A DNA stretch of 39,287 bases from Patescibacteria group bacterium (GTDB lineage: Bacteria > Patescibacteriota > Patescibacteriia > Patescibacteriales > UBA12465): positions 1 to 39,287 of the forward strand of contig JAFGTW010000029.1 in assembly GCA_016938835.1 (NCBI GenBank). The letters are read 5' to 3'. A program made the translations under genes and the position numbers. The notes beneath the pieces were generated by a model that was not told the origin of the DNA, did no database searches, and worked only from the letters and a program-made list of their open reading frames with translations. Below, piece after piece: positions 14,950-17,086 of the stretch (position 1 is the stretch's first letter; each line of letters begins with the position of its first letter).

Positions 14950-16032
14950 ATGAAAAATAAAAAGCTTAAAATATTAGTAGCAATGTCAGGCGGAGTCGAT
15001 TCTTCGGTTGTGGCTCAATTATTAAAAAACCAAGGACATGAGGTCACTGGTATTTTTTTGTATTTTTGGAAAGATAATAAAGCACCGCTAAAAGAAGAAA
15101 ACAAGGCTTCTTCAAAGCAGTCATTTTTAGATGCTAAATCGGTAGCTAAAAAAATAGGAGTTCCCCTGCTTACGCTTAATTTTTCTAAGGAATTTAAAAA
15201 AGATGTAGTAGATTATTTTTTAGCAGAGTATGCAGCTGGACGTACGCCTAATCCTTGTGTGGTTTGCAATAAACAAGTTAAATTAGGTTTACTATTAAAA
15301 TATGCTAAGTCTAATGGTTTTAATTTTTTAGCGACTGGACATTATTTAAAACGTGTAGTTAAAGACGGGGAGGTCAAAATATACAAAGCTAAAGATGATA
15401 AGAAAGATCAATCATATTTTTTGTATACATTAGAACAATCTGAATTGAAGCGATTATCTTTTCCTTTGGGTAATTATAATAAGCCGCAGGTACGCGAGAT
15501 TGCCAAGCAATACGATTTAATAACTGCTTCTAAATCTGATAGCCAAGATATCTGTTTTTTGTCTGGACCTCATAACAATTTTTTAAAACGTTATCTTCAT
15601 TTGGTCCCCGGACCAATTAAGCGTCAGGAGGATGATGTAGTTGTTGGAGAACATCAAGGACTAGCTTTATATACGGTCGGACAAAGACGAGGCATTGAAG
15701 TCGGCGGCACTGGCCCTTATTATGTAGCTGATATGGATTATAAGGCGAATATTTTATGGGTAGTGCGGACTTGGAATGATGATTTACTTTATCAGCAAGA
15801 TTTTTCTATTAAAAATGTGTCTTGGTTAACTAAAGAAGTCCCTGTTTTTCCTTATCGCTGCCAAGTAGTTATTCGCTATGGTCATCCAGCGGTTTCCTGT
15901 TTAATTAGTAGGGGCAAGAAAAAAAATGAATTAAATATTCATTTACGCATTAAGACCAGAGCAATTACTCCTGGTCAAAGTGCTGTATTTTATCAAGGGA
16001 GGCGTTTATTAGGTGGTGGAGTGATTGTATAA
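14950..16032 (+). CDS. mnmA: tRNA 2-thiouridine(34) synthase MnmA
   Basis: VAMSGGVDSSVVAQLLK; GRTPNPCVVCNKQVKLGLLL; KKDQSYFLYTL; SKSDSQDICFL; YTVGQRRGIEVGG. Confidence 0.96.
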   Translation: MKNKKLKILVAMSGGVDSSVVAQLLKNQGHEVTGIFLYFWKDNKAPLKEENKASSKQSFLDAKSVAKKIGVPLLTLNFSKEFKKDVVDYFLAEYAAGRTPNPCVVCNKQVKLGLLLKYAKSNGFNFLATGHYLKRVVKDGEVKIYKAKDDKKDQSYFLYTLEQSELKRLSFPLGNYNKPQVREIAKQYDLITASKSDSQDICFLSGPHNNFLKRYLHLVPGPIKRQEDDVVVGEHQGLALYTVGQRRGIEVGGTGPYYVADMDYKANILWVVRTWNDDLLYQQDFSIKNVSWLTKEVPVFPYRCQVVIRYGHPAVSCLISRGKKKNELNIHLRIKTRAITPGQSAVFYQGRRLLGGGVIV

Positions 16033-16489: not shown

Positions 16490-16549
16490 ATAGTAGTATG
16501 TGTGAATGAAGTGAGTTATATGTTTTATAAGATAAGATAGTATCAGTTT

Positions 16550-16592
16550 TTGACTTTAAGGTTATCTTTAGTATAACTAAAGATAACCTTAA
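16550..16592 (+). promoter_or_regulatory. Promoter and long palindromic operator
   Basis: TTGACT (16550-16555), 16-bp spacer, TATAAC (16572-16577); perfect 17-bp arms 16556-16572 / 16576-16592 around a 3-nt centre. Confidence 0.8.
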
Positions 16593-16609: not shown

Positions 16610-16945
16610 ATGGAAAATATCATTGCTTTAAAAGACTTACGTTTAAATATAGATAAATATGTTCAAGGGGTAAAGTCTAGACAATCTTTTGTTGTTGTTA
16701 AACAAAGCAAGCCAATCTTTCGCATCTCACCTTTAGAGGATGATGGGCGCTGGGAAGAGGTCACTGATTTCACAAAATTAAAAAAAGGAGATTTGACTCG
16801 TTTGGATATAAAAAGATTAAAGGGGCAATCTGGTATTTTTCGTGTGAGCAAGGGGAAGTTCAGAATAATATATTGCCTGTCTAATTCCAAAATTAAAATT
16901 CTTAGTTTAGAGAGACGTAGTGATAATACATACAATTTAAAATAG
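16610..16945 (+). CDS. Apparent fusion of Phd/YefM-type antitoxin (N) and RelE-like toxin C-terminal half (C)
   Basis: N: MENIIALKDLRLNIDKYVQGVKSRQSFVVVKQSKPIFRISPLED; C: IKRLKGQSGIFRVSKGKFRIIYCLSNSKIKILSLERRSDNTYN, matching the RelE/ParE LKG-x-yRvr-gdyRviY...I..v..R.d pattern. Confidence 0.7.
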   Translation: MENIIALKDLRLNIDKYVQGVKSRQSFVVVKQSKPIFRISPLEDDGRWEEVTDFTKLKKGDLTRLDIKRLKGQSGIFRVSKGKFRIIYCLSNSKIKILSLERRSDNTYNLK

Positions 16946-16973: not shown

Positions 16974-16999
16974 AAAAAGACTCTTTACAGAGTCTTTTT
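16974..16999. terminator. Bidirectional-capable terminator between the fusion ORF and tRNA-Leu
   Basis: AAAAAGACTCT-ttac-AGAGTCTTTTT; A and T tracts on both sides. Confidence 0.85.
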
Positions 17000-17002
17000 A
17001 TG

Positions 17003-17086
17003 TGCCGCGAGAGGGAATCGAACCCTCACAGAGTTTCCTCTACACGAGTTTGAGTCGTGCGCGTCTACCAGTTCCGCCATCGCGGC
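17003..17086 (-). tRNA. tRNA-Leu(CAA)
   Basis: Reverse complement GCCGCGATGGCGGAACTGGTAGACGCGCACGACTCAAACTCGTG...GGTTCGATTCCCTCTCGCGGCA; long variable arm; anticodon CAA; CCA not encoded. Confidence 0.95.

Follow-up and report, generated by a model that had tools for sequence, protein, structure and literature searches.

The 39,287-bp contig of a Patescibacteria group bacterium analysed here (JAFGTW010000029.1, referred to below as the window) carries at positions 16610-16945 a single open reading frame (ORF) of 111 amino acids, which starts with ATG and has no internal stop codons. The initial annotation described it as an uninterrupted ORF with a Phd-like N-terminal and a RelE C-terminal part, and this description holds, since profiles built from relatives both match the same ORF, with 97 bits for the antitoxin profile (residues 1-62) and 75 bits for the toxin one (residues 54-110), compared with about 10 and about 9 bits, respectively, for the best of 1000 shuffles. 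The order of the parts, first Phd and then RelE, stands as well, but the borders had to be moved, as the antitoxin part extends to residue 60 rather than to about residue 45, and the toxin part begins not at about residue 65 but at D61, which corresponds to the D of DFTRLD in the intact toxin. Pfam and NCBIfam by themselves recognise only the Phd part, and weakly (PF02604, residues 3-52, E=0.019, below the curated cut-off; TIGR01552, E=0.0034, also below the cut-off); the RelE half is missed by both. Elsewhere in the genome PF02604 gave no match, in a family search that is too weak even for the window ORF itself. A PF05016 match on C38 of the same genome, considered as a second toxin relic, lies antisense in a gyrB-like gene and was taken as a chance one. 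When antitoxins, toxins and the fusion were put into one alignment, the toxin rows were wrongly placed against the Phd half; each half was therefore given an alignment of its own.

Table 1. Features of the fused ORF and its surroundings (window coordinates)
Feature	Positions	Strand	Basis
Sigma-70-like promoter of the former phd-relE operon (TTGACT, 16 nt, TATAAC)	16550..16577	+	Read from the sequence
Operator-like palindrome, perfect 17-bp arms, 3-nt spacer (TTAAGGTTATCTTTAGT-ATA-ACTAAAGATAACCTTAA)	16556..16592		Shuffle comparison
Phd/YefM antitoxin part, residues 1-60 (DNA-binding half)	16610..16789	+	PF02604, TIGR01552, antitoxin profile of the relatives
Deletion junction (129 bp fewer than in G003), near-identical AAAAAA-G-G runs	16778..16793	+	Comparison with G003
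RelE toxin part, residues 61-111 and stop codon (beta-sheet core, R80S)	16790..16945	+	Toxin profile of the relatives, AlphaFold
Hairpin and T run after the ORF (GACTC-TTTACA-GAGTC-TTTTT)	16979..16999	+	Read from the sequence
tRNA-Leu (CAA) adjoining the locus	17002..17086	-	ARAGORN

A genome of the same genus, G003, possesses at the syntenic site (L002:3001-3465) an intact pair of phd (71 aa) and relE (80 aa). The gene order there is glycosyltransferase, dtd, mnmA, orf117, the pair, tRNA-Leu, parA, parB, dnaE, and these neighbours are common to the window; tRNA-Leu adjoins the pair in both L002 and L003. The window ORF corresponds to the G003 pair from which codons 61-103 (numbered from the first antitoxin codon), i.e. 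43 codons or 129 bp, have been removed in frame. The deleted stretch comprises the C-terminal 11 residues of the antitoxin (GVDIDDILTRL, 61-71 in the intact homologue), the stop codon, a 6-nt spacer amounting to two codons, and the first 29 toxin residues; the identity between the window and G003 is 81% in the aligned antitoxin and likewise 81% in the aligned toxin part. At the junction the window reads TTA AAA AAA GGA GAT TTG, and G003 reads GTA AAA AAG GGA GGA on the left side and ATT AAA AAA AGC GAT TTC on the right one. The simplest inference from these letters is that the junction would have originated by slipped-repeat deletion between the matched A-rich runs. G003 thus has, at the syntenic site, the intact orthologous pair that a decayed toxin-antitoxin (TA) locus would be expected to have in a close relative, and the earlier proposal that an in-frame deletion fused a TA pair with the loss of the toxin helices is directly supported by a syntenic two-gene pair from which exactly 129 bp are missing.

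In the model of the intact G003 toxin (pLDDT 88.5), two helices (residues 3-10 and 13-27) accompany a sheet of four strands; the structures most similar to this toxin are those of the archaeal RelE toxins 3bpq and 1wmi (probability 1.00, E 0.002-0.02), and the profile of its family matches RelE3 3bpq at E 3e-6. Both helices fall inside the deleted 29 residues, in agreement with the original remark that the N-terminal helices of RelE are missing. The AlphaFold model of the window toxin half (pLDDT 79.6) is a four-strand sheet alone, and its RelE-like nature, proposed from the letters only, is supported by its best PDB matches, which are again 3bpq and 1wmi (probability 1.00, but E 0.01-0.1). 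Since both toxin models lean on the alignment of relatives, they show homology more than stability. A single-protein PDB search with the window protein returned one unrelated weak match only. As a member of the RelE family, the fusion retains the beta-sheet core, the basic residues and the C-terminal Tyr and lacks the two N-terminal helices; as a member of Phd/YefM, it retains the N-terminal DNA-binding domain and lacks the C-terminal toxin-binding tail. Each domain is truncated at the junction, and the chain does not hold the two complete domains that define a fused TA mono-gene module.

In RelE of Escherichia coli, R61, R81 and Y87 are important for cleavage, while the K54A mutant is active (PMC2807027). 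The residues matching R61, R81 and Y87 are all retained in the fusion. Residue 80 in the toxin half is Ser, where the relatives have Arg and once Lys (24 toxins aligned), and it falls at or near the position of K54 of RelE. Our first reading of R80S as a catalytic loss was tempered by the activity of K54A, in view of which Ser80 alone proves nothing and the loss of the helices is the stronger argument. Judging from the sequence and the models, the toxin is likely to be inactive in the fusion ('toxin-dead'), and the fused protein would not be expected to be toxic.

AAGGAG at 16785-16790 and the TTG codons at 16793 and 16802, which the initial annotation considered as a possible internal start for the C-terminal part, are all present in the window. 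However, AAGGAG represents the codons of the conserved antitoxin KKGG at the junction and not a toxin ribosome-binding site, and similar purine-rich runs occur mid-antitoxin in G003 and in G004, another member of the genus. Separate translation was therefore rejected.

Upstream of the ORF, the promoter overlaps the palindrome. At the same place G003 has an identical -35 element and a shifted -10 element (TATACT) with 17-nt spacing; the window promoter was not listed by a generic scanner because the latter requires T at the last -10 position. The longest perfect arm in 500 shuffles was 15 bp (mean 6), against 17 bp in the window palindrome, and G003 and G004 possess imperfect palindromes at the corresponding position. 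The spacer TATAA of the window palindrome is the reverse complement of TTATA in these two genomes, as though an inversion, or a correction through template switching, had taken place in the palindrome. Compared with G003 and G004, about 40-50 extra bases (around 16490-16540), with AAGATAAGATA repeats on their flanks, lie between orf117 and the promoter. The hairpin downstream of the ORF is likely the terminator of the operon; a matching hairpin is situated 3' of the pair in both G003 and G004. As the promoter, the palindrome and the DNA-binding half are kept, residual autorepression is possible, i.e. the fusion might repress its own promoter as an autoregulator.

One collection scan found fourteen relatives, the closest one being L002 (G003); in most of them the match spans about 450 bases, versus 333 in the window, because the antitoxin (about 71 aa) and the toxin (about 80 aa) are encoded there by separate genes. 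The viral collection contained no relatives. Both profiles were run against the six-frame ORFs of the window and of 106 loci (107 sequences in total), the loci having come from one collection scan and from searches covering about 560 genomes, and no second fused antitoxin-toxin ORF was detected among them: the window ORF and its re-fetched copies alone match both profiles, so the fusion is private to this genome as far as seen. Conservation of the fusion in relatives, by which a fused TA mono-gene module could be recognised, is thus absent from these 107 sequences.

The pair itself has been eroded in several members of the genus. G004 has kept the antitoxin, and its relE is devoid of 66 bp encoding the start and the helices; in G006 the sole remnant is a 22-codon toxin tail; in G002, G005 and G007 the pair was not detected at the site. 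In G001 orf117 was not found, and this survey of pair loss covers the sites of G002 to G007. Outside these cases, in L024 (G058) and L014 the relatives of the Phd antitoxin have no recognisable adjoining toxin of this RelE family; these are perhaps further decayed or re-partnered pairs. The interval between orf117 and parA is occupied by unrelated sequence in L115 (G002) and L062 (G005), the former containing, as judged by eye, an apparent membrane protein of 420 aa, a methyltransferase-like ORF and a LAGLIDADG-endonuclease-like ORF; therefore, the interval looks like a small insertion hotspot beside tRNA-Leu. As for mnmA (window 14950-16032), its product shows 67% identity to the syntenic orthologues in G003 and G004; the other window genes there are 84-97% identical to G003, and the mnmA copy of G006 81%. 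Replacement of the window mnmA by recombination is possible.

Compared with G003, the antitoxin part of the ORF has a dN/dS of 0.095 and the toxin part one of 0.08. On the window branch (polarised with G004) the ORF has accumulated 9 nonsynonymous and 17 synonymous changes, which are small counts, and the amino-acid changes are far fewer than the neutral expectation (p about 1e-6). The neighbours orf117, parA and parB have a ratio of 13:86 on the same branch, versus 9:17 in the ORF (Fisher p=0.018), while no excess is observed on the G003 branch (2:9 in the ORF versus 33:86 in the neighbours). The low dN/dS in both halves implies a deletion of recent date or else some residual constraint. Most simply, the locus would have served for long as a working pair and undergone the deletion only recently, with partial constraint as a repressor being conceivable.

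Considering all of the above, we suppose, with a probability of about 0.8, that the fused ORF is a decaying Phd/YefM-RelE locus made by a 129-bp in-frame deletion between A-rich near-repeats. The comparison with G003 shows that a deletion between two short near-repeats of this kind joined phd to relE, removing the antitoxin residues expected to hold the toxin in this Phd/YefM family, and the toxin residues that form its two helices on the model. Such a single event would have taken both the toxin fold and the need for an antidote, and addiction could therefore have been lost without killing the cell. In the resulting protein the DNA-binding half of Phd is preserved, downstream of the original promoter and operator palindrome, and the protein may still dimerise and repress that promoter. 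Decay is favoured by the alteration of near-invariant positions in both halves (basic to S80 in the toxin, and G24 to R in the antitoxin, where every other aligned member has Gly), by the larger share of nonsynonymous changes than in the three neighbouring genes on the window branch, and by the independent erosion in five other members of the genus described above; the low dN/dS, the intact frame, the perfect palindrome and the retained equivalents of R61, R81 and Y87 count against it.

Part of the same evidence bears on another explanation, namely that the deletion turned the TA pair into a single-chain non-toxic autorepressor, now maintained by selection, in which the Phd half sits on the operator and the RelE sheet serves as a folded tail or a dimerisation aid. 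The intact promoter, the perfect palindrome, the DNA-binding half complete to residue 60 and the purifying selection visible on the window branch are all in line with it, and inactive TA pairs acting as regulators are known, e.g. MtvTA (PMC11826091). If true, it would present a one-step route from an addiction module to a regulator in a small-genome Patescibacterium. We regard it, however, as unlikely: the fusion occurs in no relative (106 loci), the ORF gains amino-acid changes faster than its neighbours on the window branch, the invariant Gly24 is replaced by Arg, and the perfection of the palindrome could stem from template switching. Far less credible is a working one-gene TA module, either as the whole fusion or with a toxic C-terminal half translated internally from TTG 16802. 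Fused antitoxin-BECR-toxin genes do exist (195 have been catalogued in the RelE/ParE superfamily, including YefM-YoeB fusions, 5 prokaryotic and 2 eukaryotic; PMC11980606), the single-chain TA protein EzeT (PMC4803016) is functional, and the three cleavage residues are retained here; but both toxin helices and the antitoxin tail are gone, AAGGAG is antitoxin coding sequence, and the published fusions consist of an antitoxin domain and a toxin domain rather than of truncated halves. The functional one-gene module suggested by the initial annotation also gains nothing from the relatives, none of which has this arrangement among the 106 loci. Finally, an assembly or consensus artefact at the junction, with the living population carrying the two-gene form, might be suspected in a 55-contig assembly where both ends of the deletion lie in A-rich near-repeats, but it is very improbable, given that the junction is located deep within a 39-kb contig, these repeats are both short and imperfect, and two further genus members have other deletions in the same pair, so that loss here is common.

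The decaying locus, being the preferred explanation, means that a TA pair has been caught during its loss, in a genus where the pair is also seen intact and at two other stages of decay. It suggests that one in-frame deletion across a gene boundary can disarm the toxin and the antitoxin together, providing a safe exit from addiction. It also calls for caution: before an ORF that fuses antitoxin and toxin is taken for a new one-gene module, a sister genome should be examined for the intact neighbour.

In comparison with known systems, the window locus shares with type II Phd/YefM-RelE pairs, such as that of G003, the same genes, their order, the promoter-operator layout and the genomic place, but instead of two genes of 71 and 80 aa it has one 111-aa chimera without 43 codons. 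Like the fused TA mono-gene modules YefM-YoeB and EzeT, it has the antitoxin at the N-terminus and the toxin at the C-terminus of one chain; it is unlike them because both its domains are truncated at the junction and no orthologue is fused. With degenerate or inactive TA loci of the MtvTA type (PMC11826091) it has in common a toxin presumed inactive and a preserved DNA-binding part of the antitoxin; in contrast to them, its regulatory role is hypothetical and it was inactivated by a gene-fusing deletion. Fusions of TA genes and decay of TA loci have both been described before, and the fused ORF is a tidy example.
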